The notes: generated from the sequence alone by a model not told the origin. DNA of 64,000 nucleotides from Paracoccaceae bacterium (GCA_006226775.1 SBGD01000073.1:41715-105714), one strand, 5' to 3'; shown: positions 24,168-34,192, numbered from the stretch's first letter. Made by a program: numbers and translations.

Positions 24168-24244
24168 GGCCCCGTGGCTCAACTGGATAGAGCAGCCCCC
24201 TCCTAAGGGGCAGGTTGCAGGTTCGAATCCTGCCGGGGTCACCA
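24168..24244 (+). tRNA. tRNA-Arg (anticodon CCT), CCA encoded
   Basis: Full cloverleaf: GGCCCCG/CGGGGTC acceptor, GCTC-AACTGGATA-GAGC D arm, GCCCC-CTCCTAA-GGGGC anticodon arm, GCAGG-TTCGAAT-CCTGC T arm, ACCA 3' end. Confidence 0.96.
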
Positions 24245-24585
24245 GGGAAACATGGGTTTCCTGCTGAATTTTCAGGTCATTTCCTCCGCCCGGAACGGGA
24301 TGCGGGAGGAAACAGAGGTTTCTCGCGCCGGCGTTCTCTGGTTAGTATGATGGGTGTCCGCGATCCGCGATGCCTTGCCCGGCGTCCGGGACACCTGCGC
24401 AGGACCGCGCCGACTTGGGCTTCAGCCGGTCGAAAACGGCCAGACCTCGGTCGAGTTTGCCTTCCGTCAGACCGAGCGGGGCAAGCGCGGGGACGGCGTT
24501 CGGGCGGGATCTCCGGATTTGACTTTCGAGATGCCGCCAGTGCGATATGATCGCCGTGACAATGAAAACAGGGAGCATGAGCCAG

Positions 24586-26157
24586 ATGACAAGATCGAAC
24601 AGACTTCACCGACCAACCCGCCGCGCCTTTCTCGGCACCACCGCCGCCGTCGCCGGGCTTGCCTCGGCGGGCACGCTGCTGGGGCTTTCGCCCGCGCGCG
24701 CGCAGCAGCAGCGCGGCGGCACGCTGCGGGTGGCCAAGGGCCATGGCCAGACCGGCGACACGCTCGATCCCGCGACCTGGACCAACGGTTTCGTGATCGC
24801 GCTGAGCTTCGGGATGAACGGCTATCTCACCAAGGTGGCGACCGATGGCTCGCCCGAGCCGGATGTGGCCGAAAGCTGGGAGGCCACGCCGGACGCCAGG
24901 ACCTGGCGGTTCAAGATCCGCCAGGGCATGACCTTCCACTCCGGCAAGCCGGTCACGCTGGACGACGTGATCGCGTCGATCAACCATCACCGCGGCGACG
25001 ACTCCACCTCGGTGGCCAAGCCGCTTGTCGCGCCCATCGTCGAGATCACCAAGGAAGGCGACGACACGGTGGTCTTCGAGCTCGAGGATGGCAGCGCCGA
25101 TTTCCCCTTCATCTTCACCGACTACCACATGGCGATCTGTCCCGCGGATGGTGCGGGCGGCATCGACTGGCGGTCCGGCGACGGTTGCGGGCCCTACAAG
25201 CTGGTGGAGTTCAACCCCGGCGTCGTGGCGCGGTTCGAGCGGTACGCGGACGACTGGAACCAGGACCGCGGCTTCCTGCAGACGGTCGAGATGCTGTCGA
25301 TCGTCGACGTGAACGCCCGGACGACGGCGCTTGCCTCGGGCGAGGTCGATGCCATCGACAAGCTCGATCTCAAGACGGCGGCGCTTCTGGGCCGCAATCC
25401 GGCGATCACCATCCATTCGATCCCCGGCCCGCAATACTACAGCTTCGCGGCGCGCACGGACCTGGCGCCCTACAATGACCCCAACGTGCGGATGGCGCTG
25501 AAATACGCCATCGACCGGCAGGAGCTGGTCGACAAGATCCTGTTCGGCCATGGCACCGTGGGCAACGACCAGCCCATCGGGCCCAGCTACCGGTTCCACA
25601 ATCCCGACATTCCGCAGACCACCTTCGACCCCGACAAGGCGAAGTTCCACCTCAAGGAGGCCGGGCTTGACGGGTTGACCGTGCGGCTGTCGGCGGCCGA
25701 TGCGGCCTTTCCCGGCGCGGTCGATGCGGCCACGCTCTACCAGAACTCGGCGGCCAAGGCCGGGATCACCATCGACACCAAGCGGGTGCCGAACGATGGC
25801 TACTGGTCCGATGTCTGGATGAAGGACGAGTTCAGCGCGGTCTACTGGGGCGGCCGTCCCACCGAAGACCAGATCTTCACCACCGCCTTCAAGGGCGGCG
25901 CGGCCTGGAACGACAGTTTCTGGACCAATGCGCGGTTCGACGAACTGCTGGTACAGGCCCGCGCCGAGCTGGACGAGGCCAAGCGCCGCGAGATGTATGG
26001 CGAGATGCAGCAGATCGTGGCGCAGGACGGCGGGACCATCCTGCCGATGTTCGCCAACTGGGCCTTCGCCACGTCAAGCCGCGTCGTGCATGGCGAGATG
26101 GCCTCGAACTTCGACCAGGACGGCGAGCGCTGGATGGAGCGCTGGTCGGTGGCCTGA
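24586..26157 (+). CDS. ABC transporter substrate-binding protein (peptide/nickel SBP family 5), Tat-type signal
   Basis: MTRSNRLHRPTRRAFLGTTAAVAGLASAGTLLG... then SBP_bac_5 features (GGTLRVAKGHGQTGDTLDPATW, MTFHSGKPVTLDDVIASINHHR). ORF track start 24547; 24586 chosen for GGGAG spacing and the Tat motif. Confidence 0.92.
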   Translation: MTRSNRLHRPTRRAFLGTTAAVAGLASAGTLLGLSPARAQQQRGGTLRVAKGHGQTGDTLDPATWTNGFVIALSFGMNGYLTKVATDGSPEPDVAESWEATPDARTWRFKIRQGMTFHSGKPVTLDDVIASINHHRGDDSTSVAKPLVAPIVEITKEGDDTVVFELEDGSADFPFIFTDYHMAICPADGAGGIDWRSGDGCGPYKLVEFNPGVVARFERYADDWNQDRGFLQTVEMLSIVDVNARTTALASGEVDAIDKLDLKTAALLGRNPAITIHSIPGPQYYSFAARTDLAPYNDPNVRMALKYAIDRQELVDKILFGHGTVGNDQPIGPSYRFHNPDIPQTTFDPDKAKFHLKEAGLDGLTVRLSAADAAFPGAVDAATLYQNSAAKAGITIDTKRVPNDGYWSDVWMKDEFSAVYWGGRPTEDQIFTTAFKGGAAWNDSFWTNARFDELLVQARAELDEAKRREMYGEMQQIVAQDGGTILPMFANWAFATSSRVVHGEMASNFDQDGERWMERWSVA

Positions 26158-26308: not shown

Positions 26309-27181
26309 TCAACTTGTCTTCAGCAGCGCCCAGAAGGCGGCTACCGGCGCGCTCATGCGCTCCTTGTTCTGCTTGATCTTGCGCAATTCGCGGCGGGTCA
26401 GCGGATCTGACGGCACGAAGAACTCGACCCCGTCCGGCTGATCGCGGACCGCGTCGAACGGCAGGATGCTCGCCCCCAGGCCACGCCTGACGAAAGACAG
26501 GATCGCGGTGGTATTGCGCGCCTCGAGCGTGCTTGTGGCCAGCAGCTCCCGAACCACCGGGGCATCCACCAGCCGGCACAGCGGATTTGCCACCAGCGGT
26601 TCATGCCGCAGCAGGCTCCAGTCGGACTTCCCCTCGCTTTGCAGGTGCGCGCTGTGCACCGGGCCCCCGGCGGCGCAGACGATCCCCAGATCATCGCTGA
26701 AAATCTGCTCGCCCTCCTGCGGATCGCCGGGCTGGGCCGACAGGATCCCGATATCGGCCTCGTCGCGCAGGATGCGGCGGCGCACCGCGGCGCTGTCGAC
26801 ATCGCTGATCTCGATGCGGACATCCGGGTGGCTGGCACGGAACCGGTTGACCACCTCGGGCAGAAGCGCCACCGCCGCCGAGGGCACCGCCGCGATGCGC
26901 ACGGTGCCGACCAGCGAGATCGCATGCCGCCCGATCGCCTCGAGGCTCTTGTCGAAGACATCCGTGGCGCGCTGGCTTTCCTCCAGCACCAGCAGGCCCA
27001 GTGGCGTCAGGCGGCTCTTGCGGTCGGTCTCGAACAGCGGGGCGCCGATCTCCTCTTCCAGTTGCGACAGAACCATCGAAACCGCCGAGGGCGTGCGCCG
27101 CAGGACCTTGGCCGCCCCGGAAAGCGTGCCCCGGTCGGCCACGACGCAGAAGGTGCGTAGCATCTCGAGTTTGATGTGCAT
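26309..27181 (-). CDS. LysR family transcriptional regulator
   Basis: 290 aa, MHIKLEMLRTFCVVADRGTLSGAAKVLRRTPSAVSMVLSQLEEEIGAPLFETDRKSRLTPLG. Confidence 0.95.
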   Translation of the reverse strand: MHIKLEMLRTFCVVADRGTLSGAAKVLRRTPSAVSMVLSQLEEEIGAPLFETDRKSRLTPLGLLVLEESQRATDVFDKSLEAIGRHAISLVGTVRIAAVPSAAVALLPEVVNRFRASHPDVRIEISDVDSAAVRRRILRDEADIGILSAQPGDPQEGEQIFSDDLGIVCAAGGPVHSAHLQSEGKSDWSLLRHEPLVANPLCRLVDAPVVRELLATSTLEARNTTAILSFVRRGLGASILPFDAVRDQPDGVEFFVPSDPLTRRELRKIKQNKERMSAPVAAFWALLKTS

Positions 27182-27225
27182 TCAGAAATCCTGAAGAAAG
27201 GTTCATTTAATTCAGTCTAACTGAA
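27181..27225. promoter_or_regulatory. Two TTCAG-N5-CTGAA dyads, candidate LysR-type operator pair
   Basis: ttcagaaatcctgaa (27181-27195) and ttcagtctaactgaa (27211-27225), centres 30 bp apart, in the LysR/ALDH divergent intergenic region. The second extends to AATTCAG-N5-CTGAATT. Confidence 0.7.
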
Positions 27226-27271
27226 TTTGTGCGCGGCGGGTACACCAATTGCCAGCAATCAGGAGAGACTC

Positions 27272-28723
27272 ATGACCCTTCGCACGCAACTCTATATCGA
27301 TGGCAGCTGGACCGACGGCGCCGCGCAGATCGAAAACCGCAATCCTTCCGACACCTCCGATCTGATCGGGATGTATGCCCAGGCCGACGCCGCCCAGCTT
27401 GACGCCGCCCTGAACGCCGCACAGCGCGCCCAGCCGCTGTGGTGGGCCGCCGGCATCCAGAAGCGCCATGACGTGCTGATGGCGATCGGCACCGAGTTGA
27501 TGGCGCGGGCCGAGGAAATCGGCCGCATGCTGTCGCGTGAAGAGGGCAAGCCGCTGGCCGAGGGCAAGGGCGAGGTCTACCGCGCCGGGCAGTTCTTCAC
27601 CTACTTCGCCGCCGAGACCCTGCGCAACCAGGGCGACTTGGCCGAGAGCGTCCGCCCCGGCATCGAGATCGACGTGCGCCGCGAACCTGTCGGCGTTGTC
27701 GCCATCATCAGCCCCTGGAACTTCCCGGTCGCTACCCCGGCGTGGAAGATCGCGCCCGCACTGGCCTTCGGCAACGCCGTGGTCTGGAAACCCGCCAACG
27801 TCACCCCCGCCAGCGCCATCGCCCTGACCGAGATCATCGCGCGCCAGGACATCCCCAAGGGTCTGTTCAACCTCGTCGCCGGTCCGGGCCGCGATGTGGG
27901 GCAGCGCCTGGTGGAAAGCCCGTTGGTCAATGCCATCAGCTTCACCGGCTCGGTGCCGGTGGGACGCGGGATCGCGGCGGCGGCCGTGCAGAACATGACC
28001 AAGGTGCAGATGGAGATGGGGTCGAAGAACCCGCTGATCGTCATGGATGACGCGGATCTGGATCTGGCCGTCACCCTTGCCGCCGGGTCTGCCTTTGGCG
28101 CGACCGGGCAGAAATGCACCGCCGCCAGCCGGTTGATCGTGCATGCGTCGATCCACGACGCCTTTGTCGAAAAGCTGGTGGTTGCGGCCAAGGCCCTGAA
28201 GGTGGGTCACGCGCTCGAGGACGGCACCCAGATCGGCCCCGTGGTCAGCGAAAGCCAGCTCAAGCAGAACCTTGACTACATCGAGATCGGCAAATCCGAA
28301 GGGGCCGAGCTGCTCTGCGGCGGCGACCGGCCCGACATGCCGACCGAGGGCTATTACATGGCGCCCGCGGTCTTCGCTGGAACGAAAAACGACATGCGGA
28401 TCAACCGCGAAGAGATGTTCGCGCCGATCACCGCCGTGCAATCCGCCGACAGCTACGAAGAGGCGCTGTCCATCGCCAATGACACCCAGTTCGGCCTGAC
28501 CGCCGGCATCGTGACCAAGTCGCTGGCCCGCGCCAGCCACTTCCGCGCCAACATGCGCGCCGGCTGCGTCATGGTGAACCTGCCGACCGCGGGCACCGAC
28601 TACCACGTGCCCTTTGGCGGGCGCGGTGCCTCGAGCTTTGGCCCGCGCGAGCAGGGATCCTACGCGGCGGAGTTCTACACCACCGTCAAGACGGCCTACG
28701 TCTTTGCCGGAGAGCCGCAATGA
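27272..28723 (+). CDS. Aldehyde dehydrogenase family protein (succinate-semialdehyde-dehydrogenase-like)
   Basis: 483 aa; SPWNFPVATPAWKIAPALAFGNAVVWKPA, FTGSVPVGRGIA, MEMGSKNPLIVMDDADLD, GQKCTAASRLIVH. Confidence 0.94.
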   Translation: MTLRTQLYIDGSWTDGAAQIENRNPSDTSDLIGMYAQADAAQLDAALNAAQRAQPLWWAAGIQKRHDVLMAIGTELMARAEEIGRMLSREEGKPLAEGKGEVYRAGQFFTYFAAETLRNQGDLAESVRPGIEIDVRREPVGVVAIISPWNFPVATPAWKIAPALAFGNAVVWKPANVTPASAIALTEIIARQDIPKGLFNLVAGPGRDVGQRLVESPLVNAISFTGSVPVGRGIAAAAVQNMTKVQMEMGSKNPLIVMDDADLDLAVTLAAGSAFGATGQKCTAASRLIVHASIHDAFVEKLVVAAKALKVGHALEDGTQIGPVVSESQLKQNLDYIEIGKSEGAELLCGGDRPDMPTEGYYMAPAVFAGTKNDMRINREEMFAPITAVQSADSYEEALSIANDTQFGLTAGIVTKSLARASHFRANMRAGCVMVNLPTAGTDYHVPFGGRGASSFGPREQGSYAAEFYTTVKTAYVFAGEPQ

Positions 28724-29733
28724 GCTTTCTGATCGACGGGCTGCAATATGCCAACTGGTCGGAGAAGATCTTCCGCCAGATGCGCGAAGGGGGCGTGGAC
28801 GCGGTCCACGTCACCATCACCTATCACGAGATGTTCCGCGAGACGGTGCTGGTGATCGAGAAGTGGAACCGCTGGTTCGAGCAATACCCCGACCTGATCT
28901 TCCAGGGCCGGACCGCCGCGGACGTGCAGCTTGCGCGCGACACCGGGCGCACCGCGATCTTCTTCGGCTCGCAGAACCCGTCCTGCATCGAGGATGACAT
29001 CGGGCTGGTCGAGGTGCTGCACACGCTGGGCCTGCGCTTCATGCAGCTGACCTACAACAACCAGTCGCTGCTGGCCTCGGGCTGTTACGAGGACGAGGAC
29101 ACCGGCCTGACCCGCATGGGCCGCGCCGTGGTGAGCGAGATGAACCGCGTCGGGCTGGTGGTGGACATGAGCCATTCCGGCGAACGCTCGACCTTCGAGG
29201 CGATCGAGCATTCGACCCGCCCGATCGCCATCACCCATGCCAACCCGGCCAGCTGGCACGCCGCGCTGCGCAACAAGTCCGACGCGCTGCTGCGCGCCCT
29301 GGGGCAAAGCGGCGGGTTCCTCGGGCTCTCGACCTATCCGCATCACCTGAAGGACGGCAGCGCCTGCACGCTGCAATCGTGGTGCGACATGGCGGCGCTG
29401 GCGGTGGACCTGGTGGGGCCGGGCAATGTCGGGATCGGCACCGATCTTTGCCAGGACCAGCCCGATTCAATCGTCGAATGGATGCGCGTCGGGCGCTGGA
29501 CCAAGACCATCGACTATGGCGAAGGCAGCGCCGACAACCCCGGCTTTCCGCCCATGCCCGCCTGGTTCCACGACAACCGCGACCTTGCCGCGATCCGCGG
29601 CGGCCTGCGTGCCGCCGGGCTGGACGAGGCCACCACCGACGGCGTGATGGGCACCAACTGGCACGCCTTTTTCGACAAGAGCTTCGGCGCACAGGCTGCG
29701 CGCGCCGGGCAGACCAGACGCGCCGCCGAGTAA
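28720..29733 (+). CDS. Membrane dipeptidase (peptidase M19 / renal dipeptidase family)
   Basis: 337 aa; FFGSQNPSCIEDDIGLVEVLHTLGLRFMQLTYNNQSLLASGCYE, VVDMSHSGERSTFEAI, ITHANPASWH, GIGTDLCQD. Confidence 0.93.
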   Translation: MSFLIDGLQYANWSEKIFRQMREGGVDAVHVTITYHEMFRETVLVIEKWNRWFEQYPDLIFQGRTAADVQLARDTGRTAIFFGSQNPSCIEDDIGLVEVLHTLGLRFMQLTYNNQSLLASGCYEDEDTGLTRMGRAVVSEMNRVGLVVDMSHSGERSTFEAIEHSTRPIAITHANPASWHAALRNKSDALLRALGQSGGFLGLSTYPHHLKDGSACTLQSWCDMAALAVDLVGPGNVGIGTDLCQDQPDSIVEWMRVGRWTKTIDYGEGSADNPGFPPMPAWFHDNRDLAAIRGGLRAAGLDEATTDGVMGTNWHAFFDKSFGAQAARAGQTRRAAE

Positions 29734-29768
29734 GGCACCACATTCAATCTGTTTCGGGAGGAACAACA

Positions 29769-31331
29769 GTGACCGATACCAACACCCCCACGAACAGCGC
29801 CGCATCCGGGAGGATCGACAAGGCGCTGTTCGCCATCACCGGCGGCTTCATCGCCCTGTTCTGCGCCTATGCCTTCTTTGACATCGACGGGCTTTCGGCG
29901 CTGGTCGACGCCGGGTTCAACTTTTCTGCGCGATACTTCGGCCTCTACTGGCAGATCCTGCTGCTGGCGACCTTCCTGATCGGCCTTCTGCTCTGCGTCC
30001 TGCCCGGGTCCAGAACCCTGATGGGCGGGCTGAGCAAGCCGGAATTCAGCACCTTCAGCTGGGGGGCGATGATCATGTGCACCCTGCTTGCGGGCGGTGG
30101 CGTGTTCTGGGCCGCGGGCGAGCCGATCGCGCATTTCCTGTCCACGCCGCCGGTCTTCGGCGACCTGGGCGAGGACAAGCAGGCCATTGCCAATGCGGCG
30201 CTGGCGCAGAGCTTCCTGCACTGGGGTTTCCTGGCCTGGGCTATCCTCGGGTCGCTGACCACGGTCATGCTGATGCACTACCACTACGACAAGGGCCTGC
30301 CGCTCGAGCCGCGCACGCTGCTTTACCCGGTGTTCAAGGAACGCGCGCTGCACGGCCCCATCGGGCTGATCGCCGATGCCTCCTGTGTCATCGCGGTGGT
30401 TGCGGGCACGGTCGGACCGATCGGTTTCCTCGGCCTGCAGATGTCCTACGGGCTCAACGAGTTGACCGGCATTCCCGACACCTTCGTCACCCAGGCGATT
30501 GCGGTGCTGGCGCTTGTGGCGGTCTATACCGTGTCGGCGATCACCGGGCTGGCCAAGGGCATCAAGCTTTTGTCGCAGATCAACGTGATCCTCGCCGTGG
30601 CGCTGCTGGTCTTCATGCTGGTGGCCGGGCCGACCACCGAGATCTTTGCGGGCTTCTTCGGCGGCATGGAGGTCTACCTGACCCACTTCTTCGACCTGAC
30701 GCTCTATCGCGGCGATGCCGGGCTGTTCGGCGATCCGGGCTGGCTGGGCTGGTGGACGGTGTTCTTCTGGGGCTGGTTCATGGGCTACGGGCCGCTGATG
30801 GCGATCTTCATCGCCCGCATCAGCCGCGGCCGCTCGATCCGTCAGATCATCCTCATGCTGTCGATCATAGCGCCGATCCTCACCAACTTCTGGTTCACCA
30901 TCATCGGCGGCTCGGGCATCTTCTTCGAGATTGCCGAACCGGGTGTCATTTCCGGCCCCTTCGAGGGCTTCAACCTGCCCGCCGGGCTGCTGGCGATCAC
31001 CGATGCAATGCCGATGGGCTATCTGCTGTCGATCCTGTTCCTGGTGCTGACCATGTGCTTTGTCGCCACCACCAGCGACTCGATGAGCTACGTGATCTCC
31101 TCCACCATGACCACCGGGGAACCTTCGTCCGGGCTGCGCGCCTTCTGGGGCCTGGTGATGGGGGTGATGGCGCTGATCCTGATCTCGACCGGGGCCGGTG
31201 GCATCGGCAAGCTGCAGAGCTTCATCGTGATCACCGCGGTGCCGGTGTCGCTGATCCTGCTGCCCTCGCTTTGGGATGCGCTGCGGATTACCCTGATGCT
31301 GGGCCGAGCGCCCGAGCAGGTCCGCGCCTGA
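29769..31331 (+). CDS. BCCT (betaine/carnitine/choline) family transporter
   Basis: 520 aa, about 12 TM; conserved GWFMGYGPLMAIFIARISRGRSIRQ and the WxxWxx-like BCCT segment. GTG start at 29769. Confidence 0.93.
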   Translation: MTDTNTPTNSAASGRIDKALFAITGGFIALFCAYAFFDIDGLSALVDAGFNFSARYFGLYWQILLLATFLIGLLLCVLPGSRTLMGGLSKPEFSTFSWGAMIMCTLLAGGGVFWAAGEPIAHFLSTPPVFGDLGEDKQAIANAALAQSFLHWGFLAWAILGSLTTVMLMHYHYDKGLPLEPRTLLYPVFKERALHGPIGLIADASCVIAVVAGTVGPIGFLGLQMSYGLNELTGIPDTFVTQAIAVLALVAVYTVSAITGLAKGIKLLSQINVILAVALLVFMLVAGPTTEIFAGFFGGMEVYLTHFFDLTLYRGDAGLFGDPGWLGWWTVFFWGWFMGYGPLMAIFIARISRGRSIRQIILMLSIIAPILTNFWFTIIGGSGIFFEIAEPGVISGPFEGFNLPAGLLAITDAMPMGYLLSILFLVLTMCFVATTSDSMSYVISSTMTTGEPSSGLRAFWGLVMGVMALILISTGAGGIGKLQSFIVITAVPVSLILLPSLWDALRITLMLGRAPEQVRA

Positions 31332-31339
31332 TCGCCCCT

Positions 31340-31368
31340 GGTGTGATGCGCCGCCGGCGCGTCACACC
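31340..31368 (+). terminator. Hairpin between the BCCT gene and the downstream unknown gene (terminator or attenuator)
   Basis: ggtgtga...tcacacc outer stem with a GC-rich inner stem (gcg/cgc). Confidence 0.45.
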
Positions 31369-31417
31369 GCCCCCCGCGCCTTGCCTTCGACGTCCCTGCT
31401 ATCCAGGAGAACCCGAG

Positions 31418-33094
31418 ATGTCTCTCATTCAACCGACTGCGGCCCCCGAGACCGCCCGCTACCGGCGCCCGGCCTCCGAGGTCATGCGCCTTGCCCGGAT
31501 GGGCAGCGGCCACCCGACCCGCCTGTCCTTTCTGCGCGTGCTGCTGCGGCGGCTGGCAGGCGAGGATTGGCAGATGGACCGCCCGGTCTGGAGCGTCGAC
31601 GCCAGGGGCGTGGGCCACGCGGTCTACCGCGTCACGGGCGCCGAGCGGACCTACAGCCTTGTCGCCTTTGCCCATGACCTGCCGCCCGAAATGCGCTCGG
31701 ACCGGGTGATCGCCACCGCCTGGGACGCCACCTTTACCCTGTTCGACGGCGACCCGACGCCGGAGGATATCGCCCGTCTGGCCGACAACGTCCCCTTGCA
31801 GGAGGCCGGTCGGATCAGTGTCAAGGAATTGACGCTGGCGCGCGCCAACCGCTCGGTCCGGCTCTTTGCCCATGTCATCGACGCGCTGGCGGCGGGCCAT
31901 CAGCCCGAGGCGGAAGAGATCGCCGCCGTGGGCTACCTGATGCGGACCACCGCGGTCTACGGCTCGGGCAAATTCGGTGCGGCCGACCGCGACGACATTG
32001 CCGCGCGCCCGGAACTGGCCGCGCCCTTCCAGGTCGAGATGCTGACCGTCTGGCTGATCCGCGCCTTCACCGTCGATCTGGCCGAGCACATGGCCGCCGT
32101 CAAGGGCGGCGCACGGGCCGTCAGGCTCGACCCCGAGATCCGCCGCTCCCTCGGGGTCGGCAATTCCACCGGGCTGGGCATGGCGCCGTTCATCGTGCGC
32201 CACCCGGTCCTGCTCAACAACTGGATGACCGCCCGCGAAGAGGCGCTGGCGCGCGTGCGCGCCCAGCAAAGCGCCAGCCAAGCCGCCGTATCGCACCTGC
32301 AAGAGGTCGTGGTGGCCGCCATTGACAACGCAAAGGCCTGGCGCTCCGAGCACCCGGTCCAGGTGCCCAAGCTGCGCGATCTGCGCGGCGATCTCGACCT
32401 GCTGAAACAGACCTTTGCGACTTGGGATTTCCGCCAGCCGCACCCCTGGGATGAGCTCTGGACCTGGGGCGAAAGCGCGCTGACCCTCGAAGGACAGGAG
32501 GCGCTCTTGTCGCTGATGCTCGAGCCGCATGGCGCGCTGGTGGACGATCTCGCCGACCGGATGTGCGCCGATGAGGCCGCGTCGTTCCGTCTTTCGGGCG
32601 CAATGACCGTCGGCGAGCTGCGCGGCATCCTCGAGACCGATTATGCCTGGGCGCTGGCCATCGATTTCACCACGCCGGAGAACACCGCCCGCTTCTGGTA
32701 CGTCTCCGAGGAAAAGCTCGAACCCCGCCTGGGCGACCGCGCCACCGAGGACGGCGCGACGCTGGAACAGCCCCTGTGCATCGCGCGCCTCGCCAGCGAG
32801 CTTTACGCCACGGTGCGGGAAATGGACGATGCCACGCCGGTGGCCTCGCTGCTGCTGGCCCACCCCGAACACCGCTATGCGGTGCGCCGCGCCCAGATCA
32901 CCCGGGCCCATCCCTTCGCGGAGGTGCAGGACAACCTGATCGCCGACGACATGCTGCCCATCGACCTGTTGCGCTGCAAGCTGGCGTTTTTCGGCGCAAG
33001 CCAGTTCGACCCGAGGTCGGATCGCTGGGTGCGCATCAACCTATTCCAGGGCGCGCCCTATCCCGACGACATCAAGGCGGAGACATCCCGATGA
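31418..33094 (+). CDS. Conserved protein of unknown function (558 aa)
   Basis: ATG 31418 after an aggag-type RBS; MSLIQPTAAPETARYRRPASEVMRLARMGSGHPTRLSFLRVLLRRLAGEDW... . Overlaps the next ORF by 4 bp. I do not recognise a family. Confidence 0.85.
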   Translation: MSLIQPTAAPETARYRRPASEVMRLARMGSGHPTRLSFLRVLLRRLAGEDWQMDRPVWSVDARGVGHAVYRVTGAERTYSLVAFAHDLPPEMRSDRVIATAWDATFTLFDGDPTPEDIARLADNVPLQEAGRISVKELTLARANRSVRLFAHVIDALAAGHQPEAEEIAAVGYLMRTTAVYGSGKFGAADRDDIAARPELAAPFQVEMLTVWLIRAFTVDLAEHMAAVKGGARAVRLDPEIRRSLGVGNSTGLGMAPFIVRHPVLLNNWMTAREEALARVRAQQSASQAAVSHLQEVVVAAIDNAKAWRSEHPVQVPKLRDLRGDLDLLKQTFATWDFRQPHPWDELWTWGESALTLEGQEALLSLMLEPHGALVDDLADRMCADEAASFRLSGAMTVGELRGILETDYAWALAIDFTTPENTARFWYVSEEKLEPRLGDRATEDGATLEQPLCIARLASELYATVREMDDATPVASLLLAHPEHRYAVRRAQITRAHPFAEVQDNLIADDMLPIDLLRCKLAFFGASQFDPRSDRWVRINLFQGAPYPDDIKAETSR

Positions 33095-33816
33095 CACCCG
33101 TACCCCATGACCAGACGCGCGGCGATTCCACCCCGTTCTTCCGGGACGCCAAGCCCGCGCCGCTGTCGCGCAACGAGGTCGCCTCGCTTTGCATGAAGGC
33201 CGCGCGCGGCGCCGGCATGAGCTGGGGCATGGCCGAAGAGGCCGGGTTCGCCGCCGCCTGGCTGGCCGCCCATGGCATCGACGGCCCCGCGCATCTTGCC
33301 GCGCATCTCGAGCAGGCCCAGGGCCGCGCCTGGGCCGAGCTTTGCCCCAGGGTCACCCCCGGCGACTGGCGTGCCGCGGGCGGCGGAACGCTCTGCCCCA
33401 TCGTGCTGGGCGCCACGCTCTGCGATCACGCCGCGTTGGCGCAGGGGCCGCTGGCGGGCTGTTCGATCACGCTGGGCATGGTGGACCATCCGATCCTCCT
33501 TTTGCCGTTCCTGGCCGAGATTGCGCGCCTTAACAAGGTGCTGGTCACGGTGACCTCTGCGCAGGTCACGGCCTGCATCGATGCCAGCGACACCTGGATG
33601 CAGACCGCAACCGAGATGCTCTCGGGCCAAGCGGCGGACCTGACGCTGACCGCCCGCGAAGGCGCGCTGAAAAACCCGCCCGCGCAGACCGCGCGCCACA
33701 CCAAGACCAGCGCGGATACCATCGCCGCGCTCAACGCCTTTGCCATGCGCACCACCGTCCCGGCCTCGGAGCAATCCCGCGCCGGTGCCGGATCGACGCT
33801 TGGCGACAACGACTGA
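33091..33816 (+). CDS. DUF3726-like protein of unknown function
   Basis: 241 aa; LSRNEVASLCMKAARGAGMSWGMAEEAGFAAAWLAAHGIDG resembles DUF3726 from memory. ATGA overlap with the upstream gene. Confidence 0.75.
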   Translation: MTPVPHDQTRGDSTPFFRDAKPAPLSRNEVASLCMKAARGAGMSWGMAEEAGFAAAWLAAHGIDGPAHLAAHLEQAQGRAWAELCPRVTPGDWRAAGGGTLCPIVLGATLCDHAALAQGPLAGCSITLGMVDHPILLLPFLAEIARLNKVLVTVTSAQVTACIDASDTWMQTATEMLSGQAADLTLTAREGALKNPPAQTARHTKTSADTIAALNAFAMRTTVPASEQSRAGAGSTLGDND

Positions 33817-33832
33817 ACAGAAAGGACCCCCC

Positions 33833-34192
33833 ATGACACTTGAACGCCTCTCCCCCGGCCCGCGCATGAGCCAGGCCGTCTGCATCGGCAATATTGCCTT
33901 CCTCGCCGGACAGGTGCCCGACGATCTGGGCGCCGATATCACCGAACAGACCCGGCAGGTCCTGAGCAAGATGGACAAGGTGGTCGAAGAGCTTGGCGCG
34001 ACCAAGGCCGACATCGCCTCGGTTCAGGTCTGGCTCGCCGACATGTCTGATTTCCAGGGCATGAACGCGGTCTGGGACGAATGGGTCGACCGGGTCGCCC
34101 CGCCGGCCCGCGCAACCGGCGGAGTCGCCCTGGCCCGTCCCGGAATGCGGGTCGAGATGATCGCCGTCGTGGCGCTTGGCGCAACCGGCTGA
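33833..34192 (+). CDS. RidA family (YjgF/YER057c/UK114) protein
   Basis: 119 aa; AVCIGNIAFLAGQVPDD..DITEQTRQVLSKMDKVVEELGATKADIASVQVWLADMSDF. Confidence 0.93.
   Translation: MTLERLSPGPRMSQAVCIGNIAFLAGQVPDDLGADITEQTRQVLSKMDKVVEELGATKADIASVQVWLADMSDFQGMNAVWDEWVDRVAPPARATGGVALARPGMRVEMIAVVALGATG

Follow-up and report, generated by a model that had tools for sequence, protein, structure and literature searches.

Homarine (N-methylpicolinate) and other betaines, zwitterionic compounds with a quaternary nitrogen, are abundant osmolytes of phytoplankton. Homarine is reportedly degraded through an operon, homABCDER (Ferrer-Gonzalez et al. 2026, Nat Microbiol 11:1531), which is said to consist of one regulator and five enzyme genes, to occur in Rhodobacterales, SAR11, and SAR116, and to yield N-methylglutamate and glutamate. 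Trigonelline, likewise an N-methylpyridinium carboxylate, is broken down via tgnABCDE/R in Acinetobacter with the help of an aldehyde dehydrogenase and C-N hydrolysis. A paper citing the homarine work states that a conserved pathway was published in 2026 and that N-methylglutamate dehydrogenase (Mgd) takes part in homarine catabolism (PMC13390433), and Ruegeria pomeroyi takes away homarine rapidly (PMC12817926). Here, we analyze a 64,000-nt stretch from a Paracoccaceae bacterium (the window; host genome 4.58 Mb, 100% complete) carrying a divergent LysR gene and a six-gene operon around a 558-aa orphan protein, U558. With a probability of about 0.6, these genes form an operon under LysR control for the uptake and breakdown of a betaine, most likely homarine, and probably represent the homABCDER operon of the 2026 report.

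The LysR regulator and the five non-transport genes match homABCDER, as reported, in number. The reported clades agree as well: U558 occurs in 93 of 199 Rhodobacteraceae genomes, in the SAR11-type genomes G404 and G494, and in genome G410, probably the SAR116 strain IMCC1322. Probably, A to E correspond to the aldehyde dehydrogenase (ALDH), the M19-like protein, U558, the DUF3726 protein, and RidA (or an Ldh_2 oxidoreductase), in some order, R to LysR, and the BCCT protein is a local transporter. The first-pass annotation had called the system undescribed. As the module fits homABCDER as reported, this label is probably out of date at operon level, by a few months; the U558 family itself is still uncharacterized.

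Results

Gene arrangement and conservation

The LysR-family regulator (26309–27181, minus strand; PF00126 and PF03466) is divergent from six plus-strand genes. These encode the ALDH (27272–28723; PF00171, E = 1.9e-161), an M19-fold, amidohydrolase-like protein (28720–29733; PF01244, 222 bits), a BCCT-family betaine-type transporter (29769–31331; PF02028, E = 4.3e-145, 484 bits, residues 20–505), U558 as the core of the module (31418–33094), a DUF3726 protein (33091–33816; PF12525, E = 4.7e-25), and a RidA-family protein (33833–34192; PF01042, E = 1.7e-27, 96 bits). ALDH and the M19-like gene overlap by ATGA at 28720, as do U558 and DUF3726 at 33091, while the remaining gaps measure 35, 86, and 16 bp. 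Thus, all seven genes lie where the first-pass annotation had placed them, tightly spaced behind a divergent LysR, and both overlaps are genuine. The ALDH is most similar, among NCBIfam models, to 2,5-dioxovalerate and α-ketoglutaric semialdehyde dehydrogenases at scores under the cut-off (NF052305, 501 bits vs 750), and RidA likewise scores under the TIGR00004 cut-off. The BCCT protein is matched by its profile over the full length, its closest solved structures being the TMA, choline, DddT, and BetP transporters.

Among named genomes, 373 relatives of U558 were identified; the best 80 come mainly from Rhodobacteraceae, with some from Granulosicoccus, Roseibium/Labrenzia, Acidocella, and others. 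Gene neighborhoods were counted by tblastn over 89 U558 loci, in preference to GC-based ORF calling, which missed genes in low-GC loci; the counts are lower bounds, as several loci end at contig edges. Near U558 we find DUF3726 in at least 84 loci, the M19-like gene in 83, ALDH in 69, LysR in 60, BCCT in 56, RidA in 51, and an Ldh_2 oxidoreductase in 20. The commonest order, LysR / ALDH-M19-BCCT-U558-DUF3726-RidA, recurs in Rhodobacteraceae and beyond, across orders. Of 199 host-family genomes, 93 encode U558 and 84 encode DUF3726, 83 having both (Fisher P = 2e-43), with the DUF3726 gene mostly within ~100 bp downstream of U558; the two genes share a 4-base overlap in 46 of 78 loci. U558 is further present in 53 of 385 genomes of the host class and in 52 of 54 genomes of one genus, entered via a Ruegeria locus. 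The recurrence of the order across and beyond the family, together with the tie between DUF3726 and U558, shows that the seven-gene arrangement is not chance. A test for fixed co-occurrence of the two unnamed proteins had been suggested, and such co-occurrence is borne out by the 84 of 89 loci and by 83 of the 84 genomes with DUF3726; the gene set is kept as a unit in hundreds of genomes.

The M19-like, U558, and DUF3726 genes form a trio that is found without recognized adjoining ALDH or transporter in five loci (L018, L055, L069, L073, and L078). It stands alone in G404, where the DUF3726 partner is matched at E = 9.7e-22, and in G494, M19 and U558 adjoin each other. Both genomes contain the exact target of the 16S probe SAR11-542R, which is our basis for calling them SAR11-type, and genomes with this target are among the 53 of the host class. 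As the trio persists without the other module genes, it is likely the chemical core, in line with the central position that had been assigned to the two unnamed proteins.

As a correction to the first-pass gene set, none of the seven genes is less constant than RidA, whose place is at times taken by an Ldh_2 oxidoreductase. Directly downstream, 34 loci have only RidA, 9 only Ldh_2, 2 both, and 26 neither (uncorrected for relatedness), so that the two tend to replace one another at this position.

A divergent branch of U558 (29–34% identity; hhalign E = 2.5e-46 for one member) occurs in Sinorhizobium (pSymB), Aminobacter, Alloyangia, and Mesorhizobium (L085, L086, L087, and L090). Here, the neighbors include different (other ABC) transporters, most loci have M19 and RidA, and several have an IclR regulator. 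The small partner of this branch gives no tblastn match to DUF3726, while that of L087 has a similar C-terminal SR..AG motif. Probably, the branch handles a related compound. A literature search on the S. meliloti locus tags returned only a mention of a transporter gene and is uninformative. In two genomes (G147:C30 and G026:C22), the U558 module lies a few kb from the gene for the large subunit of glutamate synthase, possibly by coincidence.

Regulator and operator

Alignment of the LysR-ALDH intergenic regions of 57 loci reveals a 45-bp pattern, TTCA-N6-CTGAA-N6-TTCA-N15-CTGAA, that is kept across genera and forms a conserved putative operator at 27181–27225 (plus strand). Its first half is a T-N11-A palindrome resembling a LysR box (TTCAG-N5-CTGAA). 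The exact pattern has one match in the window, with 0 expected from shuffling, and allowing up to one mismatch there is again one match in the whole host genome. At the same tolerance, 17 of the 19 matches in the 199 genomes lie within ~10 kb of a U558 gene, and a reversed control pattern gives none. This single copy, together with the clustering of matches near U558, suggests that the operon is the regulator's only strong target in the host organism.

U558, DUF3726, and the M19-like protein

U558 is an uncharacterized orphan family. By sequence, the protein has no Pfam match over the cut-off and no NCBIfam or PDB match, and the search with its structural model (from 64 sequences; pLDDT 85.7, pTM 0.87) finds no PDB entry at E ≤ 0.001 (best 0.27, TM ~0.1) and none among viral models. 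The predicted fold is new in comparison with solved structures and viral models, the two sets covered by the search.

The DUF3726 assignment of the 241-aa neighbor is secure, at 87.7 bits against a cut-off of 22.1. Its model (pLDDT 88.7) has a predicted fold like that of Ldh_2, a family of ketimine and ketoacid reductases: the top 27 PDB matches in Foldseek are Ldh_2-type enzymes (probability up to 1.00, E ~5e-4, TM ~0.4), including ureidoglycolate dehydrogenase and Δ1-piperideine-2-carboxylate reductase. In the profile comparison by hhalign, an N-terminal stretch aligns in register at a probability of ≤5%, so that the link to Ldh_2 is one of fold. Compared with the ~340-aa Ldh_2 family, DUF3726 shares part of the fold and is ~100 aa shorter; it lacks the catalytic SHG motif and the full-length NAD(P)H site, with no conserved His at the motif position. 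Given the non-significant profile comparison and the loss of SHG, the modeled protein is a remote and probably non-canonical Ldh_2 relative; its role may lie in nicotinamide-cofactor binding or in acting as a subunit. A literature search for DUF3726 found no papers.

The Ldh_2 proteins that end some operons also vary. Those of L022 (10329–11348), L019, L032, L034, L075, and L076 have ICG at the SHG position and gain HSHTC further on, compared with the SHG-bearing proteins of L081, L084, and L088. Judged by these motifs, the ICG type may catalyze a different reaction.

M19 enzymes hold a binuclear zinc center through HxD, Glu, His, and His. In alignments of the M19-like protein to 2i5g, 3id7, and GliJ, HxD is replaced by LQY (IDGLQYAN) and the metal-bridging Glu is lost, while two later His and an Asp are retained; the pattern is conserved in 81 homologues. 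The closest solved relative, PDB 2i5g (E = 3e-56), likewise misses the HxD and Glu ligands. The 2i5g protein is an M19-like “amidohydrolase” of P. aeruginosa encoded beside betaine genes, and it is not known to have a U558, DUF3726, or RidA partner. The label of M19 dipeptidase given earlier therefore fits in fold and profile (PF01244), while the protein is non-canonical in its zinc ligands. Since HxD and the bridging Glu are gone from both proteins, a simple dipeptidase role is unlikely, and we set it aside.

Evidence on the substrate

In seven loci, an OpuAC/OpuAB-type glycine-betaine ABC transporter (so annotated in L088) is present instead of BCCT, and this swap supports a betaine substrate. 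In Phaeobacter inhibens and Ruegeria TM1040, the operon is flanked by genes of the sarcosine-oxidase type; in SAR11, such genes lie in the same 20-kb stretch as U558. Moreover, a stand-alone second GXGXG (Mgd/GlxC-type) match is found in 44 of 93 genomes with U558 and in 26 of 106 without it (P = 0.001), an enrichment that could also be explained by shared marine life. Taken together, the betaine-type transport, the likeness of the ALDH, the enamine/imine enzymes, and the linked sarcosine-oxidase-type genes suggest as substrate an amino-acid-like, N-methylated betaine, with its carbon arriving at the level of 2-oxoglutarate or glutamate. A dedicated module for uptake and degradation of a betaine or amide-type compound had been proposed; the transporter swap, the conservation as a unit, and the persistence of the trio without the rest in some genomes speak for such a module for a betaine, and the amide is weakened by the loss of most metal ligands from the M19-like protein.

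Two neighboring gene sets were seen in addition. Directly 3′ of the operon on the Phaeobacter inhibens plasmid pPGA1_262 (L083:13482–20965) are genes for an FAD oxidoreductase, an ALDH, a Rieske oxygenase, a LysR regulator, and a VanB-type reductase, a second catabolic set that by its composition looks like a betaine demethylation pathway. In L047, L050, L054, and L044, the module adjoins, upstream of LysR, genes for a further LysR and a flavoprotein of the DAO type, and three of these loci also encode a (2Fe-2S) protein; this set resembles opine/hydroxyproline oxidase gene sets.

Discussion

The genes and their conservation, the conserved operator sequence, the exchange of transporters, the predicted DUF3726 fold, and the missing M19 ligands are results of the analysis; the substrate and every reaction step of the following scheme we infer from the gene content. 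BCCT would import the substrate. U558 and DUF3726, as a two-subunit enzyme encoded by overlapping genes, would dearomatize or open the N-methylpyridinium ring, oxidatively or reductively, and the C-N bond so produced, in an N-formyl group or in a cyclic enamine, would be hydrolyzed by the M19-like protein. This would expose a 5-carbon semialdehyde of the 2-amino-5-oxopentenoate type for oxidation by the ALDH, whose likeness to 2,5-dioxovalerate dehydrogenase agrees with such a role. RidA, or Ldh_2 where present, would convert the N-methyl enamine or imine to 2-oxoglutarate and methylamine, or to N-methylglutamate, and a sarcosine-oxidase-like enzyme or Mgd would perform the last step. Tentatively, and at odds somewhat short of even, we propose that U558 and DUF3726 represent a new class of two-subunit enzyme with a fold outside the PDB, whose task is the activation or opening of a ring with a quaternary nitrogen, for instance the N-methylpyridinium of homarine, and that its product is the substrate of the metal-poor M19 protein, a C-N hydrolase of a new type.

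Several observations weigh against homarine as the substrate. The host genome has no stand-alone GXGXG protein and hence no Mgd of the known kind, while a second GXGXG match is missing from half of the genomes with U558. No recognizable oxygenase or flavoprotein is encoded within the operon, so that the first step would fall to the U558-DUF3726 pair or to an enzyme whose gene lies outside the operon; the tgn genes, in contrast, open with a flavin monooxygenase and its reductase, neither of which is in this operon. Mgd as an obligate partner is rejected, being absent from about half of the U558 genomes and from the host. Because Mgd is not part of the operon, its absence lowers the pathway claim and does not exclude it; a homologue of sarcosine oxidase alpha (47% identity) is encoded elsewhere in the host genome and, by homology, could do the Mgd-type step.

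The same kind of module could instead serve another substrate, such as trigonelline, proline or hydroxyproline betaine, pipecolate betaine, a sulfonium analogue, or another N-methylated compound, the homarine operon then being a different gene set. Betaine-type transporters would suit this, as would RidA and Ldh_2, which are compatible with any amino-acid betaine that forms an imine. It is also favored by the missing host Mgd and by the presence of the module in soil and freshwater genera such as Paracoccus, Defluviimonas, Aminobacter, and Acidocella, habitats not known for abundant homarine. Known betaine routes, however, need a demethylating Rieske enzyme, a betaine epimerase, or a dimethylglycine-type enzyme, none of which is seen in the conserved module across the 89 loci, and the gene count and clades match the homarine operon as reported. 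We regard a different substrate as unlikely without being far-fetched.

That U558, DUF3726, M19, and RidA serve to remove a reactive by-product, an enamine or imine, with the transporter incidental, is highly improbable. Such a detoxification or repair role would agree with the established handling of enamines and imines by RidA proteins and with the five loci in which the trio lacks a transporter, but catabolism is what one typically finds with a betaine-type transporter linked in most loci, a LysR regulator with a conserved single-copy operator sequence, patchy presence (93 of 199 genomes), and sarcosine-oxidase genes nearby. The chance that the adjoining genes are functionally unrelated is practically nil: order and linkage are kept across orders, the core trio occurs in SAR11, and the divergent operator and the ATGA couplings complete a conservation that refutes this reading.

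A homarine operon of this kind, preferred here, would be of wide relevance. Roughly half of the genomes sampled from a major marine family carry the module, and its core also occurs in streamlined SAR11 genomes. Built on U558, a protein without family model, solved relative, or fold match, the module is a clear target for study. Its reaction would reveal the way in which a ring of high chemical stability can be opened, and U558 with DUF3726 would serve as a clean marker of the process in ocean metagenomes.

Neighboring genes

On the LysR side of the module, an orphan gene for a family-5 solute-binding protein (24547–26157), whose product has a twin-arginine-like signal, is not kept beside the module in other loci. 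Just 5′ of it, at 24168–24244 of the window, lies a tRNA-Arg gene (anticodon CCT).

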